Shown here: one piece after another, positions 10,062 through 58,395 of the stretch
How positions within the stretch are numbered: the stretch's first letter is position 1
How the letters are laid out: every line of letters begins with the position of its first letter
Source: Ulvibacterium sp.
Lineage (GTDB): Bacteria > Bacteroidota > Bacteroidia > Flavobacteriales > Flavobacteriaceae
Assembly: GCF_028285715.1 (NCBI RefSeq)
Contig: NZ_JANQOO010000016.1
Coordinates: forward strand, 1-64,000
Reading direction: 5' to 3'
DNA length: 64,000 nt
Translations under genes and position numbers: made by a program
The notes under the pieces: model-generated
Told to the model about the DNA's origin: nothing
The model's input: only the letters and a program-made list of their open reading frames with translations
The model's database searches: none

Positions 10062-11801
10062 ATGGCAGACAAAAAAGTTAGTGTCCTAAAGGCATTTAGA
10101 ACTATTATTTGGCCCAGAAGAAAACTGGTCTTTGTGGGTCTGTTGCTCATAGTTATTAGTAGGGCGGCCAGTTTTGTAGCACCCATTTCCCTACGCTTTT
10201 TTTTGGACGATATAGTCCCCAATAAAAACTATGATCTACTAAAAATTCTGGTTGTTGTGGTCATTCTGTCCTTTTTGGTACAGGCGGTAATGTCCTTTCT
10301 TTTGACCAAAGTATTGAGCATACAGGCGCAATACATGATATCGGAATTACGGGCCCAAGTACAAAAGCAAGTCCTTTCCCTACCCATACGTTTTTTTGAT
10401 AATACCAAATCCGGGGCCTTGGTCTCACGTATTATGAGCGATGTGGAAGGTGTCCGCAATCTGATCGGTACCGGTTTGGTACAACTCGTAGGGGGGACCC
10501 TAACCGCGGTGGTATCGCTCGTTTTGTTATTGCGGATCAGTCCAACCATGACCCTGTTGACCTTTATCCCCTTAATTCTTTTTGCATTCATTGCATTGAA
10601 GGCCTTTAAGATTATACGGCCGGTCTTTAGAGATCGGGGCAAAATAAATGCGGAGGTAAAGGGACGCTTAACCGAAACCTTGGGTGGAATTCGGGTCATT
10701 AAAGGGTTCAATGCCGAAGCACAAGAAGCGGAAGTCTTCGAGGGCGGCGTGAGGAGATTGTACGAAAACGTTAAAAAGAGTTTAACCGCGACCGCCGTTA
10801 TGACCAGTTCGTCCACTTTTCTGTTGGGGCTGGCGACCACAGGAATAATGATGGGGTATGGAGGTTATAAGATGATGCAAGGGGAGTTAAGTACGGGGGA
10901 ATATTTTGAGTTTACCTTTTTGTTGGCCTTAATGGTGGCCCCTATCGTTCAGATGAGTAATATAGGAAGCCAACTCACCGAAGCATTGGCGGGTCTGGAC
11001 CGTACCGAGGAATTGATGAACGAATCCGCAGAAGCCGATAATAAGGAACGCACTAAGGTACTTTCCAATATTTTGGGCCATATGGTCTTTGACCGGGTTT
11101 CCTTTGCCTATGAAGAAGACAAGGAAGTGCTACACGATGTAAGCTTTAAGGTCGCAGCAGGTCAAGTTATTGCCTTGGTGGGGAGCTCGGGCTCCGGTAA
11201 ATCTACCATTGCAGGTTTGGCCGCAAGCTTCTTGAGTCCGGATTCAGGCCACATTACCATTGATGGCCATGATATGTCCAAAGTTGATCTGACCAGTTTT
11301 CGTCAATTTTTGGGCGTAGTACTACAGGACGACTTCCTATTCGAGGGCACCATTAGGGAGAACATTTTGTTTCCTAGACCTGACGCTAGCGAAAAAGAGC
11401 TGGAAAAAGCAGTACGAGCCGCTTATGTAAATGAATTCACGGATCGTTTCGACGATGGTCTTGACACCTTGATCGGTGAACGCGGGGTAAAGCTCTCAGG
11501 CGGCCAAAGACAACGTATCGCCATTGCCAGGGCGGTTTTGGCAAACCCTAAAATTTTAATATTGGACGAGGCCACATCAAGTTTGGATACGGAAAGTGAA
11601 GCCTTGATTCAAAAGAGTTTGGCCGAACTTACCAAAGGACGGACCACATTTGTTATAGCACACAGACTGAGCACCATTAGAAAAGCCGATCAAATCTTGG
11701 TCATCGAAAATGGAAGTATCGCAGAACAGGGAACCCATGAAGAATTGATTGCCTCGGAAGGGCGGTACTATAATCTCTTTACGTATCAAGCAAGGATTTA
11801 G
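10062..11801 (+). CDS. ABC transporter, fused permease/ATPase (MsbA-like exporter)
   Basis: This 579-residue half-transporter has an N-terminal six-helix exporter domain (residues about 15-310) and a C-terminal nucleotide-binding domain. The ATPase motifs are canonical: Walker A GSSGSGKST near residue 373, Q-loop VLQDDFLFEGT, signature LSGGQRQR near 478, Walker B ILILDEATSS near 500, and the H-loop AHRLSTI. It would work as a homodimer in the inner membrane. Similar proteins export lipids or drugs, and the substrate cannot be read here. It makes a useful contrast with the degenerate ABC protein at 55091-56758, whose motifs are all changed. Confidence 0.93.
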   Translation: MADKKVSVLKAFRTIIWPRRKLVFVGLLLIVISRAASFVAPISLRFFLDDIVPNKNYDLLKILVVVVILSFLVQAVMSFLLTKVLSIQAQYMISELRAQVQKQVLSLPIRFFDNTKSGALVSRIMSDVEGVRNLIGTGLVQLVGGTLTAVVSLVLLLRISPTMTLLTFIPLILFAFIALKAFKIIRPVFRDRGKINAEVKGRLTETLGGIRVIKGFNAEAQEAEVFEGGVRRLYENVKKSLTATAVMTSSSTFLLGLATTGIMMGYGGYKMMQGELSTGEYFEFTFLLALMVAPIVQMSNIGSQLTEALAGLDRTEELMNESAEADNKERTKVLSNILGHMVFDRVSFAYEEDKEVLHDVSFKVAAGQVIALVGSSGSGKSTIAGLAASFLSPDSGHITIDGHDMSKVDLTSFRQFLGVVLQDDFLFEGTIRENILFPRPDASEKELEKAVRAAYVNEFTDRFDDGLDTLIGERGVKLSGGQRQRIAIARAVLANPKILILDEATSSLDTESEALIQKSLAELTKGRTTFVIAHRLSTIRKADQILVIENGSIAEQGTHEELIASEGRYYNLFTYQARI

Positions 11802-51589: not shown

Positions 51590-51952
51590 CTATCCAAGAA
51601 GTTCCTTGGCCCTTATGCTTTTTGAAATATCGGCGAAGAGTTTTGTGACCGTTTCTGAAAAGGTCTTTCCGTCGGTTCTGGACAATGACGCAATAGTGCT
51701 ACCATCTTTCATTTTTAAAATACTCACCACCTGTACTTCAATTCCCTGGAATTGTAGCAGCTTTTTCAGATCCGATAATTTGTGCCTATCAAAGTGTAAT
51801 GAAGCATAAACAAATTCGTAATAGAGGTTGGAAGGTCTACCGATCCTAAACAACATTCCAGGTCTGACTGGAATTTCTTCCATGTTGGCTTTTGGATTGC
51901 GTTCGTTCCTTTCGTCGAACTTGGGAAAGGGTAGTATTACTTCTTTTTTCAT
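51590..51952 (-). CDS. small protein related to the 57593 and 58006 products
   Basis: These 120 residues show no signal peptide. The core (about residues 48-105) reads ASLHFDRHKLSDLKK, then VQVVSILKMKDGSTIASLSR and DGKTFSETV. The 58006 product has the matching order IHFPRKN, VTNIKIKSNGNTVVTLKR, NGRKFFKHF; the 57593 product shares LTLRREDGRDFYNLF. I infer a small paralogous family; identity is low and judged by eye. It lies upstream of the 51236 gene and is preceded by a -7 element and two AGTAATACT palindromes. Function unknown. Confidence 0.6.
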   Translation of the reverse strand: MKKEVILPFPKFDERNERNPKANMEEIPVRPGMLFRIGRPSNLYYEFVYASLHFDRHKLSDLKKLLQFQGIEVQVVSILKMKDGSTIASLSRTDGKTFSETVTKLFADISKSIRAKELLG

Positions 51953-52320: not shown

Positions 52321-53727
52321 TCAAAGGTTTTCCGGATTCAAGGCAAGGCTGTTGAAAAGTTTGGCCTTGGCCGTAAAGTACTTGTTTTGTACTTCGTTCT
52401 GCTTGAGTTCGGCATCGATTAGGCTGCTTTCGCGCGAGTTAATAAGAAATAAGGAGCTTTCCCCAAAACTAAACTTGCGTTCCTCCGCGGTCAACAGGGT
52501 CTGATAATCAGCTACGATGTCATCTATCAATACGTTCTGGGAATCAAAAGATTCCAATTCCCGATAAATCCCTAATATTTTGTTCTGAATCTGCACCTCG
52601 GCATTGTCTCGTTCAAATTGGGCGTCTTGCAGCTTAAATTTGGCTAACTTTAAATCTCCGCGTTCCTTCCTTAAAAATAACGGAAACCTAAAGGTCACTC
52701 CCCCTTTATACTCCTCTGGTTCAAAGGAGTTTATAAGCTCTGGAGTTTCGGTCAAAAAGTTATATTCCAAATCAATTTGAGGTAACAGTTTGTTGGTTTT
52801 CAATCTTTTATCTACTCTCAAACCGTCAATCTTAAAATCCAAAGACCTTAATTTCGGATGATTCTCCAAGGTAAAGCTATCCAAGGGTCTACCCAGAATT
52901 TCAAGAGTAGTATCAATATCCTGTTCAACATAGATATCCGGGATTACATTGGGTTGAATCTCAACGGGAATATTATCGTTTAGCCATAAAAAGTTGGAAA
53001 GATCTAAGGCGGCCTTTATCATTCTTACTTTGGCCTGTTCCAAACTCAAGGCCCTATTTTGCACTGCAATCCTTGCCTCTACGGTATCTATTGATGCAAT
53101 GTCACCGGCTAATGCGCTTTTTCGAATACCCTCAAAGCGTATTTGGGCATTGGTCAAAAAATTTCTAAATATCTCCGCATCCTTGTATGCCTGCAACCAA
53201 TCAAAATAAGCCAGGGAAGCCTCAAATAAAATCTGGTTTACCAAGAGATCTCGATCCGCTTTAGTCTGTTCCCTAAAGAACTTGGCTTGTTTTAACGTGG
53301 CCATGCGCTCATTTATCCAAGAGCCCCTTCCCAGGGAAACGGATACTCCGGCACTATAGAGTCCATCGGTGGGTACTGAGAGGGAAGGATCCAGAAACTC
53401 CCCTTCGTTCTGCTCAAAATTCCCTTTCAGTTCTATCCCGTACCATGTAGGGATCTTGAAAGTGGCATTAAGTTCATCATAATACTCAATCCCTTTGAAC
53501 TCTTTTCGATCATAGTCCACCTCAATTTTTGGATCAAAACCACCACGGGCCCTCATTAGGTTGGCCTGTCCAATGCCGATATTCAATTCTGCCTGCTTGG
53601 CTACGGGATGATATTTTTTGACGTACCCTAAATACTCCTTAAAATTGAGCACCAGGGTATCTACATCCTGGCCATGTAGAGCTGATGTCATACAAATGAC
53701 GATAAGAAAAATAATATGCCTTTTCAT
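52321..53727 (-). CDS. TolC-type outer-membrane efflux protein
   Basis: This 468-residue protein has a signal peptide (RHIIFLIVICMTSALHGQ) and then the two TolC-like repeats of long helices and strands. Examples are AELNIGIGQANLMRARGGFDPKI, the helix around LSLEQAKVRMIKAALDLSNFLW, and the late helix ESSLIDAELKQNEVQNKYFTAKAKLFN. It would form a trimeric outer-membrane channel. As last gene of the tetR-ABC-HlyD unit, 2 bases after the adaptor gene, it completes a tripartite exporter. Confidence 0.9.
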   Translation of the reverse strand: MKRHIIFLIVICMTSALHGQDVDTLVLNFKEYLGYVKKYHPVAKQAELNIGIGQANLMRARGGFDPKIEVDYDRKEFKGIEYYDELNATFKIPTWYGIELKGNFEQNEGEFLDPSLSVPTDGLYSAGVSVSLGRGSWINERMATLKQAKFFREQTKADRDLLVNQILFEASLAYFDWLQAYKDAEIFRNFLTNAQIRFEGIRKSALAGDIASIDTVEARIAVQNRALSLEQAKVRMIKAALDLSNFLWLNDNIPVEIQPNVIPDIYVEQDIDTTLEILGRPLDSFTLENHPKLRSLDFKIDGLRVDKRLKTNKLLPQIDLEYNFLTETPELINSFEPEEYKGGVTFRFPLFLRKERGDLKLAKFKLQDAQFERDNAEVQIQNKILGIYRELESFDSQNVLIDDIVADYQTLLTAEERKFSFGESSLFLINSRESSLIDAELKQNEVQNKYFTAKAKLFNSLALNPENL

Positions 53728-53729
53728 AT

Positions 53730-55085
53730 CTATTTTTTATCGGCATTAGCCATCTTGTCACTTTCAGGCTGATAGTAATTGGGGGGGAATCCGTTGAGTT
53801 GTCGCCACAACTCGAACCATATGGGGACATCTTCCAAAAGCGCTATGGTGTTGGCTCCTGAACCTACCCTCAAATCTTTTGGCCATGGATGGTCTTCTAC
53901 ATCCGGTGCCAAAAGGATGCGATATTTACCGTTATCGCTGATAAATGTTTCAATGGCTACCACAACGCCCCCATACGTTCCATAGGAGAGATTGGGCCAT
54001 CCACTAAAGATTATTACGGGCCAACCATCAAACTGTATCCGTACCTTTTCACCTAAATGCATCAACGGTAGGTCTATGGGTCTGACAAAAGTTTCCACGG
54101 CCATTTCATATTGAGCGGGCATAATGCCTACCAATTGATCTCCTTCCTTAAAAGTCTCCCCGATTCCGGATTGTATGGCCTTGTTTATAAAACCGGTCTG
54201 TGGTGCCCGGATGTAATACAGATCGTTGCGTATTTCATAATTGGTAAACTCATTCTCCAGCTTGGTTACCTGCGCCTCGGAATCAAACTGATTTGATTGA
54301 GCGGTGAACTTATCACTTTGTGCTTTCGCAATTTTATCGGCATATTCCGCCTTTACCCGGGTAATCTCAACTTCTGAATTGATTACTTCATTCTTACTGG
54401 CCAATAACTTGTTTTCTTGGGAAATGAGTTTAGCCTGGGTTTCTTGTTGTTTCAAACGTTTTTCCTCCACATCGGTAACGGCCTTTAATCCTTCACTCTC
54501 CAATTGCGAGGTACGGTCAAATTGTCTGTTTGCTATTATAATATTGGTCTTTGCCGCTTCAAGATCAATACTATCGCTCTGTACTTTCAACCTTGCCTGT
54601 AACAGTTTATTCCTCGCCTGCTCCAATTTCAGCTTTAATTCCTTTTCTAGCGCATTGATTTGGTTGTCCAAAGCCTTTACCTTCTCTTGATAGGAACGTA
54701 CGGACATGGATTTGGCCTTAATCTGCTGTCCTGTCCTTTCGACCAGCATTGGGTCGAAATATTCGTTCTTGATTTCCGAAATATGCAATATGGTATCCCC
54801 CTTCTGAACGAAATCACCTTCCTTGACATACCATCTTTCAATCCTTCCTGGAATTGGCGATTGTATGGTCTGAGGTCTCTGATCTGGGGTCAAGGTGGTG
54901 AGATAACCTTCACCGGTAACATTCTGTGTCCAGGGTAAGAACAAAATGATTATGAAAGCTACGGCAAATCCTGCCAAGAACCTATTGAAGTGCTTGTAGT
55001 GCCGCTTATGGAAAACTTTTTCCGTGGATTTGTATCCCCTCAAATCCACGTTCTTGTTTACTCTATTTCTTGAGATATTCAACAT
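53730..55085 (-). CDS. HlyD-type membrane-fusion (adaptor) protein
   Basis: This 451-residue adaptor has one membrane helix (FLAGFAVAFIIILFLPW, about residues 33-52) and a first lipoyl half (QSPIPGRIERWYVKEGDFVQKGD). A long coiled coil spans about 125-285, rich in Gln, Lys and Glu, followed by the second lipoyl half (IRAPQTGFINKA) and a beta-barrel domain. It would bridge the ABC protein and the TolC-type channel. The long hairpin and two lipoyl halves match type I secretion and ABC efflux adaptors. It lies 5 bases after the ABC gene. Confidence 0.92.
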   Translation of the reverse strand: MLNISRNRVNKNVDLRGYKSTEKVFHKRHYKHFNRFLAGFAVAFIIILFLPWTQNVTGEGYLTTLTPDQRPQTIQSPIPGRIERWYVKEGDFVQKGDTILHISEIKNEYFDPMLVERTGQQIKAKSMSVRSYQEKVKALDNQINALEKELKLKLEQARNKLLQARLKVQSDSIDLEAAKTNIIIANRQFDRTSQLESEGLKAVTDVEEKRLKQQETQAKLISQENKLLASKNEVINSEVEITRVKAEYADKIAKAQSDKFTAQSNQFDSEAQVTKLENEFTNYEIRNDLYYIRAPQTGFINKAIQSGIGETFKEGDQLVGIMPAQYEMAVETFVRPIDLPLMHLGEKVRIQFDGWPVIIFSGWPNLSYGTYGGVVVAIETFISDNGKYRILLAPDVEDHPWPKDLRVGSGANTIALLEDVPIWFELWRQLNGFPPNYYQPESDKMANADKK

Positions 55086-55090
55086 AGAAT

Positions 55091-56758
55091 CTATTTTTCG
55101 CTAGTTAATTTGCCTTTTTCCAAAGTGAGGATTCGGCCACATCGATCTATCCATTTAGGGTTTTGACTTACTACCATCAAAGCCCATGGACTATCTTTAT
55201 GGGTAAGGAAATCCATAATACGGACAGCCTCTTTTTCATCAAATTGGTCCAAAGGATCCTTAAGAATTATTAATTCAGGTTTTCTTACTATACTACGTGC
55301 CAACACTATTTTTTTGGAAATAGTGTAGGAAATCTGTTTTCCCTCCGGATAAATAATGGTCTTTAGACCGTGGGGCTGTTCCTTTACAAACTCGGTAAGC
55401 CCGGTCTTTTCCAAGGCCCAATAGATATCATCCATGGGTACGTCATCATCACCAAAGGTTATGTTCTCCAAGATAGTGCCCTCAAAAGGCGACTCCTCTG
55501 TGAGCGATTGACCCAAATGTGCACGGTAATAATTAAGATTGAGTCCCCTCAACGACACATTGTTAATGAAGATATCGCCCTCGTCGGGTTCAATTATACC
55601 TGCTATGAGTCTAAGCAATGTGGCCTTACCGGAACCATTGGGTCCCTGTAACAAAATGGTACAACTTGGGGTTATGGTAAGGGAAACATCGTCTATTATC
55701 TTTTTATTGGTTCCTGGTGCCCTAAAAGTCACTTTGTCCAATTCCACGGTAAACCCTTCATGCTCCTTAAATGGTTTTTCTCCTTGTTGGGGCTCCAACT
55801 CCTTATCCACCACTTGACCTAGTTTTTCCAAAGAGGTAAGTACGTCATAAAATGATTCCAATCCCAAAATAAGCTTCTCCACGGAGGCAATGACCAATAG
55901 GATAATAATTTCCGCTGCCACAAACTGACCAATGTTCATTTCCTGGTTGAGCACTAACAAACCACCTATTAAAAGTAGTCCCGCGGTAACCAATACCTTA
56001 AACCCTATCATCTGTATGAACTGTAGTACCAATATCCTAAAGTGGCTTTCCCTAGCTTCCAGATACCCATCTACAAGGCTATCGCTTTTCCTAAGGGCGT
56101 GGTTGGTCCTACCGGAAAGCTTAAAGCTAACAACGGAACGGGCCACCTCTTGTATCCAATGCGCAACCTTGTATTTGTTCTTGGATTCATCCAAACTAGT
56201 TTCCAATCCCCTTTGAATCGTAAATTTAAATACTATGTAAATCAACACTATCAGTAATATCCCGTAGATAATAAAGAAAGGATGGTAAAAGGAAAGCAGT
56301 AGTAGTCCGAAAATAATCTGGAGCAAAGCCGTTGGAAAATCTACCAAGAGCTTGGACAGTCCTTTTTGAATATTCAGGGTATCAAAAAAGCGATTGGCCA
56401 ATTCAGGTGGGTAAAAATTCCGTAATTCGCTCATTCTTATTTTGGGGAATCTATAGGTAAATTCAAAGGAGGCACGCGTGAATATTTTTTGTTGGATATT
56501 TTCGATAATCCTTATTTGCATCAACTGCAATATCCCTGCAAAGGCAACCCCCAGAGTAACCAGTACCACCAGTATTATCCAAGAAGTACTCACTTGGGCT
56601 CCTTGAATGAGGTTTATAATGGCTTGAATACCCAAAGGCAAGGAAAGGGTCACAAGTCCGGCAAAGATGGCATAATAAAAAATTTGAAGTACATCCTTTC
56701 TATCCAATTTAAGCAGCCCTACCAAGCGCTGCCAAGCCGTTAAAATCTTTTTCGCCAT
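55091..56758 (-). CDS. ABC half-transporter with degenerate nucleotide-binding domain
   Basis: This 555-residue protein has an exporter-type membrane domain with about six helices (residues 25-300) and an NBD (about 335-555) whose fold is recognisable but whose catalytic residues are changed. Walker A reads GPNGSGKAT, with Ala379 for Ser. The Q-loop Gln aligns with Thr420. The LSGGQ slot reads ISYTI (476-480). Walker B reads IILKDP, with Lys500 for Asp and Asp501 for Glu. The H-loop His aligns with Gln532. There is no peptidase domain. The frame is intact and the operon neighbours are well kept, so this looks like a functional pseudo-ATPase and not decay. The substrate is unknown. Confidence 0.9.
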   Translation of the reverse strand: MAKKILTAWQRLVGLLKLDRKDVLQIFYYAIFAGLVTLSLPLGIQAIINLIQGAQVSTSWIILVVLVTLGVAFAGILQLMQIRIIENIQQKIFTRASFEFTYRFPKIRMSELRNFYPPELANRFFDTLNIQKGLSKLLVDFPTALLQIIFGLLLLSFYHPFFIIYGILLIVLIYIVFKFTIQRGLETSLDESKNKYKVAHWIQEVARSVVSFKLSGRTNHALRKSDSLVDGYLEARESHFRILVLQFIQMIGFKVLVTAGLLLIGGLLVLNQEMNIGQFVAAEIIILLVIASVEKLILGLESFYDVLTSLEKLGQVVDKELEPQQGEKPFKEHEGFTVELDKVTFRAPGTNKKIIDDVSLTITPSCTILLQGPNGSGKATLLRLIAGIIEPDEGDIFINNVSLRGLNLNYYRAHLGQSLTEESPFEGTILENITFGDDDVPMDDIYWALEKTGLTEFVKEQPHGLKTIIYPEGKQISYTISKKIVLARSIVRKPELIILKDPLDQFDEKEAVRIMDFLTHKDSPWALMVVSQNPKWIDRCGRILTLEKGKLTSEK

Positions 56759-56761
56759 GTA

Positions 56762-57436
56762 TTAAGCTTTTAGGGATTTAAACACCAAATCAATGAAATA
56801 TTGGGTGGGGGTTATGTCTTCATTGCAATCCGTTAAGGATGAAAAGTGTTCCTTTAGGAAATATTGGTGCAAAGATCCTTCGATGATGGTACTTGAAAGA
56901 CTGGATGGGTAAGGATACGTGGAATCCAGGGCCTTTATCATATCACTTATACGGTTTATCAGCCTCTTATAAATCACAAAATACCCTTCCTTGTTTTCCT
57001 CATCAACCTCTTTTGTCAAATAGGATTTTGAATATTCATTGATCACAATCTTGTTCAAGATAACTTCGTTGATATGTGAAAAGGCCGAATCTTCCTTTGT
57101 TTCACGGGTCATTATCTCAATGGCCTTGGTAAGCTTGTCTTTTGTATTGGGAATACTATTGGTAAAAAACACCAATTGATACTCCAACCACCCCCAATAC
57201 CATGAAGTTAGGTATAACAGAAGTTTATGTTTATTTTCAAAATACCTGTAAATGGAGCTTTCATTGGATCCAATCCTAGCACCTAATTTTCTAAATGTAA
57301 AACTTTCGAATCCCATCTCATGTATCATTAAAATACCCTCTTCCACTATTCTTTTTCCAAGAACTGAAGATTCCGGATCCTTGATGAATATTTTTTCATT
57401 AATCCCGATTTTTAATGATTGCAATAGATGCTCCAT
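56762..57436 (-). CDS. TetR-family transcriptional regulator
   Basis: This regulator of about 224 residues has a TetR helix-turn-helix: GKRIVEEGILMIHEMGFESFTFRKLG, then ARIGSNESSIYRYFENKHKLL. A long helical ligand-binding domain follows (WYWGWLEYQLVFFTNSI). I chose the ATG at 57436; upstream codons run through the promoter. It is the first gene of the exporter operon, 3 bases before the ABC gene, and is divergent from the 57593 gene. Palindromes beside its promoter suggest autoregulation. The inducer is unknown. Confidence 0.92.
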   Translation of the reverse strand: MEHLLQSLKIGINEKIFIKDPESSVLGKRIVEEGILMIHEMGFESFTFRKLGARIGSNESSIYRYFENKHKLLLYLTSWYWGWLEYQLVFFTNSIPNTKDKLTKAIEIMTRETKEDSAFSHINEVILNKIVINEYSKSYLTKEVDEENKEGYFVIYKRLINRISDMIKALDSTYPYPSSLSSTIIEGSLHQYFLKEHFSSLTDCNEDITPTQYFIDLVFKSLKA

Positions 57437-57463
57437 GTTTAGTCTTGTTTTATAGTTATCGCA

Positions 57464-57471
57464 CAAATATA
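57464..57471 (-). promoter_or_regulatory. TAnnTTTG -7 element for tetR operon
   Basis: The minus strand reads TATATTTG, 27 bases before the tetR start. The palindrome ATAGTAATACTAT (57472-57484) directly abuts it on the upstream side, inside the promoter spacer. Confidence 0.6.
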
Positions 57472-57510
57472 ATAGTAATACTATCGTTATATAATAGTTT
57501 AACAACTATT
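57472..57510. promoter_or_regulatory. candidate TetR operators in tetR / 57593 intergenic region
   Basis: ATAGTA-A-TACTAT (57472-57484) is a perfect 13-bp palindrome. AATAGTT-TAAC-AACTATT (57493-57510) is a second inverted repeat sharing the ATAGT half-site. The inner AGTAATACT also occurs twice upstream of the 51590 gene. Position over the tetR promoter fits autorepression. Confidence 0.6.
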
Positions 57511-57592: not shown

Positions 57593-57988
57593 GTGAAACT
57601 ATTTGTAATATTTGTAGGAATTGTTGCCCCCTGTTTTATAGGGAATGCACAACAAACAGGTTTGTTGATCTTGGACGACTACCAAAAAATTGAGACCTCC
57701 TATGCCTCTACCATACATGAAATACAACTTCCCGCAGAAGAGGTGATGGCCATAATGGGCGGTTTGAACGATTGGGACGGAATGAACAACTATTTTAACA
57801 TATTTGGGAGTAAACTAATTGTTGAGCGTATGGATATAAACAGTGATGGATCCAAACAACTTACGCTAAGACGTGAAGATGGTAGGGATTTTTATAATCT
57901 ATTCCAGACTATCACCGCAAAATTAATTCCTATTGCAGTAGAAACCAATTCGGACAATATAGACCTCAAGACCTATAATACGCAATAA
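57593..57988 (+). CDS. small secreted protein, first of a pair divergent from tetR
   Basis: These 131 residues start at GTG and carry a signal peptide (LFVIFVGIVAPCFIGNAQ). The mature part has IHEIQLPAEEVMAIMGGLN and then SDGSKQLTLRREDGRDFYNLF, the core shared with the 58006 and 51590 products. I know no family name. It is divergent from tetR with operator-like palindromes in between, so it is probably in the same regulon as the exporter. The next gene lies 17 bases downstream. Confidence 0.65.
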   Translation: MKLFVIFVGIVAPCFIGNAQQTGLLILDDYQKIETSYASTIHEIQLPAEEVMAIMGGLNDWDGMNNYFNIFGSKLIVERMDINSDGSKQLTLRREDGRDFYNLFQTITAKLIPIAVETNSDNIDLKTYNTQ

Positions 57989-58005
57989 CCTAAATTCAAT
58001 ATAAT

Positions 58006-58395
58006 ATGAAAGCAGTAGTATTTTCCCTAGTATTTATGCTCGCAGGTTTTACGGCCATGGCACAGGACACTAGCGATTTGGTCGAAATTGGCGATGTTAT
58101 GAGCATTAACGTTCCAGAAAATGGAAATTTTGAACACATTCATTTTCCTCGAAAAAATGTTATAATTAAAAGAGGTGCCATAGCTGATATGAAAAGTGTT
58201 CATGGAAACGAGGTATTGGTTACCAACATCAAGATAAAAAGTAACGGAAATACCGTAGTTACCTTAAAACGCAAAAATGGTCGAAAATTTTTCAAACATT
58301 TCCCGTCCGTAAAAGCTGATTTGGAAAATGCATTGACCAAAGGCGAACTAAAAATTGACGATTCTTCCGAAAAGGATGAAATTGCCAGAAGATAG
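58006..58395 (+). CDS. small secreted protein, second of the pair
   Basis: These 129 residues have a signal peptide (VVFSLVFMLAGFTAMAQ) and a basic core, FEHIHFPRKNVIIKRG followed by VTNIKIKSNGNTVVTLKRKNGRKFF. A charged C-terminal tail follows. The core resembles the 51590 product in order and spacing. The protein is probably periplasmic or exported. It lies in one unit with the 57593 gene and is followed by a hairpin with a perfect 10-bp stem. Function unknown. Confidence 0.65.
   Translation: MKAVVFSLVFMLAGFTAMAQDTSDLVEIGDVMSINVPENGNFEHIHFPRKNVIIKRGAIADMKSVHGNEVLVTNIKIKSNGNTVVTLKRKNGRKFFKHFPSVKADLENALTKGELKIDDSSEKDEIARR

Follow-up and report, generated by a model that had tools for sequence, protein, structure and literature searches.

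Our alignments indicate that a family of ABC-exporter-derived proteins in Bacteroidota combines clade-wide loss of the catalytic residues of the nucleotide-binding domain (NBD), purifying selection on the dead domain, and disappearance of the whole NBD in one nested lineage, which retains the operon and in which coupling helix 2 is eroded. The member described here lies in the window, the whole 64,000-nucleotide stretch of Ulvibacterium sp. DNA that was analysed (contig NZ_JANQOO010000016.1). We lean slightly towards a reading in which its product, of ABC descent, serves as the inner-membrane part of a tripartite HlyD-TolC apparatus and works independently of hydrolysis, with an energy source and cargo that we infer. 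An ABC exporter is generally regarded as a primary pump, with its ATPase as the defining part. Many Bacteroidota keep an ABC-type export set with a dead ATPase, and these sets may thus run on something other than their own ATP hydrolysis.

The window operon comprises four contiguous genes on one strand, in the order tetR, ABC, HlyD, TolC. These genes, and the two domains of the ABC-derived protein, are:

56762-57505, reverse strand: TetR-family regulator (Pfam TetR_N above cut-off)
55091-56758, reverse strand: ABC-exporter-derived protein with a degenerate NBD (555 aa, intact frame, ATG start)
55793-56758, reverse strand: membrane domain of that protein, residues 1-322, its better conserved half (Pfam ABC_membrane and conservation)
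55094-55753, reverse strand: degenerate NBD of that protein, residues 336-555 (Pfam ABC_tran and AF2 model)
53730-55085, reverse strand: HlyD-type periplasmic adaptor, 451 aa (Pfam HlyD_3/Biotin_lipoyl_2 above cut-off)
52321-53727, reverse strand: TolC-type outer-membrane channel, 468 aa (Pfam OEP above cut-off)

The coordinates and Pfam matches confirm the first-pass annotation in that the frame is intact and the gene lies between tetR and intact HlyD- and TolC-type genes. The TTG start listed for TetR is probably too far upstream, as many relatives align from about residue 24. The window protein has the ABC_membrane plus ABC_tran architecture of a type 1 secretion ABC exporter (HlyB/PCAT type), with both matches above cut-off (37.5 bits for ABC_membrane; 64.9 bits for ABC_tran, cut-off 25). 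Its AlphaFold (AF2) model is moderate (mean pLDDT 68.8, pTM 0.44) and contains the strands and helices of the degenerate NBD; the top Foldseek matches, TM287/288 and PCAT1 among them, are ABC exporters, with TM-scores of only ~0.4-0.6. The membrane domain alone, as a single sequence, gave no match to PDB sequences at E 0.1, and a membrane-domain profile search reached ComA, PCAT1 and HlyB. A search against an anti-phage library returned weak matches, to the P-loop region.

We called NBD motifs by alignment with the window's own canonical exporter (10062-11801), taking the motif names and the expected role of each residue from general knowledge. The altered positions are:

55718-55720, reverse strand: A-loop position, Ala347 (Tyr in 5/5 canonical rows)
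55622-55645, reverse strand: Walker A, GPNGSGKA, with Ala379 and the rest of the P-loop kept
55499-55501, reverse strand: Q-loop position, Thr420
55319-55333, reverse strand: signature position, ISYTI (476-480) in place of LSGGQ
55256-55261, reverse strand: Walker B Asp-Glu position, Lys500-Asp501
55163-55165, reverse strand: H-loop position, Gln532

All the changes named by the first-pass annotation (Ala379, Thr420, ISYTI, Lys500-Asp501 and Gln532) are thus present, and the A-loop aromatic is missing as well. The residue roles are partly borne out by the available part of PMC7756269. Judged by Walker A and B, signature and H-loop, the window protein lacks a catalytically competent NBD. A homodimer of it would very probably be incompetent for ATP hydrolysis, as had been proposed, and the loss of catalytic residues is common to the TetR-ABC-HlyD-TolC family.

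The family is widespread. A search with the window protein found matches in 21 of 40 relatives at E 1e-30 and, at E 1e-40, in 97 of 395 genomes sampled from the phylum; a separate search at E 1e-20 reached 197 of 395 genomes, a figure that may include other exporters and is not a family count. Within the genus, all three genomes examined carry the gene, the window's own included. Named hosts in the set of the best 80 of 512 matches include Ulvibacterium, Flagellimonas/Allomuricauda, Aquimarina, Maribacter, Arenibacter and Eudoraea, and relatives also occur on seven plasmid records of Persicobacter, Aureibacter and Riemerella. Five of these seven are annotated 'ABC transporter ATP-binding protein' (e.g. 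WP_309940528.1), and genes so labelled may be misdescribed in many Bacteroidota genomes. HlyD lies directly downstream at 171 of 172 core loci with >1.4 kb of flank, and TolC downstream at 119 of 121 with >3 kb; among basal loci with enough flank the figures are 7 of 8 for HlyD and 6 of 8 for TolC. A relative of the window TetR is found upstream on the same strand at 139/183 core, 0/8 basal and 0/9 NBD-less loci, and is divergent at two of the nine NBD-less loci.

The alignments show that motif loss is a family trait. We reduced 243 loci to 215 unique proteins (28 duplicates) and dropped L193 and L207, both cut at the 3' end, and the window's own copy; the final 214 rows, which include the window protein and the window canonical exporter, comprise 191 core, 9 basal, 9 NBD-less and 5 canonical sequences. 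Among the 191 unique full-length core members (window included), whose counts lean towards close Flavobacteriaceae because 77 rows come from the Flavobacteriaceae set of the best 80 of 512 matches, Walker A survives in 167, Lys378 in 180 and the A-loop aromatic in 74; 20 retain the Walker B Asp and 18 the catalytic Glu (6 have the pair), 7 have the Q-loop Gln and 4 the H-loop His, and the signature GG is found in none. Outside that set, 97 of the 114 rows keep Walker A, 20 the Walker B Asp, 17 the catalytic Glu, 6 both of these residues, 7 the Q-loop Gln and 3 the His, and none has the GG; a set thinned at 80% membrane-domain identity (83 rows) gives a similar pattern. A single protein, L234, is noted as retaining Walker A, Asp, Glu and His together. 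Positions conserved at ≥90% in the core NBD include the P-loop glycines and lysine, Phe425, Gly427 and Asn432 after the Q-loop, and Ala487 and Arg488 in the helix after the signature.

The replacement residues vary between members. Position 501 is Asp in 155/191, position 500 is distributed by clade (K 84, E 66, D 20, N 9, others 12), position 420 is Thr in 59/191, position 532 is Gln in 48/191 and position 379 is Ala in 6/191. Ala379 and Gln532, whose conservation the first-pass annotation had raised, are therefore not conserved as such; Lys500 is not conserved family-wide but is clade-wise. Near-standard motifs are restricted to a basal group (n = 9, 29-36% identity) with Walker A, Walker B Asp and catalytic Glu in 9/9, His in 7/9, Q-loop Gln in 0/9 and signature GG in 1/9. 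Changes on a careful tree (58 NBD-bearing rows) number 6 for the Walker B Asp, 7 for the catalytic Glu, 3 for His and 7 for Walker A, counts that cannot separate gain from loss and whose simple reading suggests repeated loss of catalytic residues. The pattern suggests an order of loss that runs from signature and Q-loop, through Walker B, Glu and His, to the A-loop and Walker A in places and finally the whole domain. Six full-length proteins (L164, L199, L222, L226, L229, L240) have lost Walker A residues too, a stage between a dead and an absent NBD. Separately, 25/191 core and 5/9 basal members, e.g. L154, L157, L182 and L227, carry a poorly conserved N-terminal extension of 150-185 residues; it gave no Pfam match in three proteins scanned, and our guess is that it is a remnant of a C39-like domain.

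The degenerate NBD is under constraint. Omega (Nei-Gojobori, own script) for the NBD is 0.022-0.046 in 7 disjoint pairs (median 0.042) and 0.022-0.061 over all 14 usable pairs; the membrane-domain median is 0.024. The dN/dS comparison that had been proposed for the NBD thus points to purifying selection. Because GG is absent from all 191 members and NBD omega is low, the altered motifs reflect more than chance. We had considered that the window gene is a lone decayed allele among homologues with standard motifs, the outcome named in the first-pass annotation as counting against it; no such picture is seen among the 191 members, and motif loss across them together with purifying selection rules it out. 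In 18142 of 18145 core pairs the membrane domain, which has many invariant positions throughout, is better conserved than the NBD of the same protein; in canonical exporters the NBD is the better conserved domain in 10/10 pairs. Basal pairs are mixed (NBD less conserved in 22/36), so this reversal may predate the loss of the catalytic Asp and Glu. Retention of the P-loop by most members suggests that nucleotide still matters to them, and the NBD appears to be retained as a domain, though not for catalysis.

We identified at least nine unique proteins, a count among the members examined, that have no NBD: they are 332-339 residues long and end at the linker, and at all nine loci HlyD follows directly downstream, then TolC. 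In the careful tree (67 rows) they form one clade (100/100) whose sister is L157, a protein with a dead NBD (100/98), and both lie inside the degenerate clade (100/100); the outgroup branch is very long, and the root therefore rests on few distant rows. These nine members strengthen the first-pass suggestions of a gated conduit or another energy source. We considered several independent NBD losses, as the nine fall in families f17, f23 and f24, which also hold NBD-bearing copies, and rejected this as both trees give one clade. A split of the NBD into a neighbouring gene was also rejected: HlyD is directly downstream in all nine loci, and a canonical exporter query finds nothing in the flanks of eight. 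Beside one NBD-less member, at L134:10209-10955, a lone ABC NBD frame lies ~1.3 kb past TolC; it is absent from the other eight flanks. Two further candidates, the apparently NBD-less G642 (353 aa) and the 514-aa match G585, were dropped because they are cut by contig ends.

Four features of the membrane domain are conserved in ways that bear on function:

56105-56167, reverse strand: coupling helix 2 region, residues 198-218, conserved in members with an NBD and eroded in NBD-less members
55997-55999, reverse strand: Lys254, predicted TM5 (K/R in 190/191 full-length, 9/9 basal, 9/9 NBD-less, 0/5 canonical)
55910-55912, reverse strand: Glu283, predicted TM6 (E in 189/191, 9/9 basal, 9/9 NBD-less, 0/5 canonical)
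55877-55879, reverse strand: Glu294, predicted TM6 (E in 191/191, 8/9 basal, 7/9 NBD-less, with D/E in all basal and all NBD-less members, 0/5 canonical)

Residues 198-218 are what we take, by homology, to be coupling helix 2. Its 12 conserved positions are retained on average at 24% in the NBD-less members versus 84% in 12 full-length relatives, against 59% versus 70% for the whole membrane domain. Only 35 of 20000 random sets of 12 positions reach retention this low, and when excess loss is compared over 179 windows, the top place goes to residues 199-224. No other stretch of the NBD-less membrane domain is eroded as much as coupling helix 2. In the NBD-less members the coupling helix 1 region (112-136 in window-protein numbering) is 86% retained; a lack of NBD contact in these proteins does not predict this conservation, and the region may therefore serve a use other than NBD docking.

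The charged residues are also found in the basal group, where Walker B is kept, and ComA, which is ATP-driven, has a Glu at the counterpart of 294; the charges are therefore not tied to the loss of ATP hydrolysis. A spacing of 11 residues along a single predicted helix would allow E283 and E294 to share a face. The conserved E283, E294 and K254 are suggestive of a proton drive, an assignment we regard as tentative and on balance doubtful.

An obvious alternative is that the protein is powered in trans, with a canonical half-exporter or free NBD hydrolysing ATP as in exporters with one degenerate site. Known heterodimers tolerate one such site, according to the available part of PMC7756269, the window genome has 52 ABC_tran matches, and the helix 1 region is conserved even in NBD-less members. 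Against this, no second exporter frame or half-exporter with a consensus site was found near the window operon. No half-exporter with a consensus site was found at the nine NBD-less loci either, where the frame by L134 is the only lone NBD past TolC. Another ABC-domain frame occurs in the flanks of just 6/208 unique loci (65/208 having <6 kb of flank): three in f71, the one beside L134, and two ~260-aa frames resembling importer-type ATPases. Docking of a foreign NBD predicts a conserved helix 2, and its erosion where the NBD is gone therefore weakens the trans model. When we searched the nine NBD-less genomes with the L157 NBD, no close NBD appeared: among the matches listed the best-scoring reached 101 bits at 31% identity, identities reached 33%, and the top matches lay in frames of ~600 aa. 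As a yardstick, run with phmmer and only roughly comparable in score with the genome search, eleven near full-length relatives score 163-211 bits against the L157 NBD and five canonical exporters 72-90; the 190 core NBDs have a median of 139 bits with 183 above 101, and nine family NBDs are 37-43% identical to it. Since 7 of the 190 family NBDs score at or below 101 bits, a diverged orphan NBD could be missed, and a close one would stand out. Family f71 differs. A canonical exporter frame lies upstream of the dead-NBD gene, on the same strand and some 60 bp to 1.3 kb away, at all five loci examined:

L188, 2-595, same strand: canonical exporter frame, cut by the locus end
L195, 3124-3945, same strand: canonical exporter frame, cut by the locus end
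L202, 2-883, same strand: canonical exporter frame, cut by the locus end
L208, 2850-4778, same strand: canonical exporter frame
L212, 1295-3115, same strand: canonical exporter frame

The three frames read, at L188, L195 and L202, have intact NBD motifs over their available length, and the upstream exporter is a possible partner in that lineage. The first-pass idea of pairing with an unlinked NBD is therefore weakened for the family as a whole, by helix 2 erosion and the lack of a close NBD in the nine genomes, and stays live for f71; overall we consider power in trans distinctly unlikely.

The membrane domain could instead be a scaffold only, anchoring and positioning HlyD under TolC while cargo such as Sec-exported proteins enters from the periplasm. 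This would fit the dispensability of the NBD in one lineage and the correlation of HlyD with membrane-domain identities (r = 0.963, over non-independent pairs of 181 sequences). It would also fit two tandem ~130-aa proteins with signal-peptide-like starts, which lie divergent from tetR on the forward strand:

57593-58395, forward strand: two tandem small proteins (57593-57988 and 58006-58395)

Such a small protein is divergent from tetR in 59/74 loci with at least 2 kb upstream, in the Flavobacteriaceae set of the best 80 of 512 matches, where the next neighbour occurs at 37, and 76/98 small-protein frames have a signal-peptide-like start by a crude rule. Seven scanned gave no confident Pfam match. 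Three related small proteins flank the operon in all (57593-57988, 58006-58395 and 51590-51952), and across the class no conserved neighbour was found, with 14/91 loci at most. The tandem proteins are possibly cargo or partner, in an association that is not absolute: of 9/40 relatives that carry the small protein, four have it away from the ABC gene and two have no ABC gene at E 1e-30. We treat the small protein as a lead and not as the cargo. Its occurrence in other genomes apart from the ABC gene, or where that gene is missing, counts against the scaffold, as do the TM5/TM6 charges and the many invariant membrane-domain positions, which suggest more than an anchor; we judge a pure scaffold unlikely. 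An ATP-binding switch, in which the kept P-loop binds ATP and gates by binding alone or hydrolyses slowly, draws on the retention of Walker A in 167/191 and on Gly372, Gly377 and Lys378, which are among the best conserved NBD residues. Yet the A-loop aromatic is present in only 74/191, Pro477 (104/191) and Tyr478 (82/191) would be expected to disturb the ATP sandwich, the window protein has no Walker A Ser/Thr, and NBD-less members exist, which leaves a switch or residual catalysis quite improbable. The lost catalytic motifs would also suit a decaying pseudogene, a reading made next to impossible by an NBD omega near 0.04, the intact frame and an operon kept in distant families.

The working mode that we modestly favour is one independent of hydrolysis. 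The ancestor would have been an ATP-driven, type-1-secretion-like ABC exporter. The membrane domain would be the working part, moving or gating substrate into the HlyD-TolC conduit without ATP hydrolysis of its own. The most likely energy source would be the proton gradient, acting via K254, E283 and E294; the next candidate would be a conduit that is passive or gated by its substrate. The NBD, where it survives (most lineages), may brace the coupling helices or clamp them as a nucleotide sensor. Such a role would account for drift at the hydrolysis residues alongside a conserved scaffold and P-loop, and in one lineage this role may have become dispensable too.

More broadly, the family may be a second case in which an ABC exporter has independently become an exporter free of any ATPase need, here in an envelope-spanning HlyD-TolC machine, with all stages alive and proton power supplied by charges that predate the loss of hydrolysis; we put this forward as a speculative proposal that could well be wrong. 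If it is true, living relatives hold a near-intact NBD, a dead NBD under purifying selection, and no NBD. With a dead ATPase kept widely and one lineage dropping the NBD, the conversion of a primary to a secondary pump could then be studied stepwise.

Among the papers listed by searches of the open-licence PMC literature, we found no description of this dead-NBD HlyD-TolC exporter family. A paper on F. johnsoniae tolC coevolution treats its operon as RND-type, which the authors could not confirm (PMC10197871); by the description in the part available, the operon differs from ours in gene order. The portion of PMC12487129 available only lists HlyD and TolC domains. In heterodimeric exporters, as the accessible parts of PMC8277102 and PMC7756269 describe, Asp replaces the catalytic Glu (TmrB D500) and loss of the Glu goes with an altered H-loop. 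The Asp at the catalytic Glu position makes our family resemble the degenerate-site heterodimers TmrAB, TM287/288 and TAP, from which it differs in having no consensus-site partner near the window operon, more motifs lost, and NBD-less relatives; the canonical exporter upstream in f71 is the exception to the missing partner.

Sequence kinship and HlyD-TolC partners are shared with the type 1 secretion and peptide exporters (HlyB, LssB, PrtD, PCAT1, ComA). The family departs from these in its altered catalytic motifs, and the window protein falls below the cut-off of every NCBIfam model among the best 25 of 167 matching, the best being TIGR03375 LssB (185 bits against a cut-off of 693). A second likeness is to the SLiPT proteins (SbmA/BacA). 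The available part of PMC13316013 describes SbmA as an ABC membrane domain that lacks an NBD, is driven by protons and has a glutamate ladder, one that is incomplete in an NBD-bearing relative, and proposes for SbmA/BacA an NBD-bearing ABC ancestor whose coupling helices were lost. Our NBD-less clade is a partial parallel, as an ABC-exporter membrane domain without an NBD. Unlike SLiPT proteins, the window protein retains an NBD, and proteins at a dead-NBD stage are still common. Pfam scans of two NBD-less members gave a match to ABC_membrane (PF00664) and none to an SbmA family; neither these two nor the window protein matched any SbmA model at E 0.01. The helix 1 region is kept here, helix 2 is kept with the NBD and eroded without it, and proton coupling is suggested only by conserved charges. 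The NBD-less members sit in a HlyD-TolC operon and therefore probably export, in which they also differ from SLiPT. The family is thus closest to SbmA in working principle and to the type 1 secretion exporters in ancestry, and by the tests made it belongs to neither.
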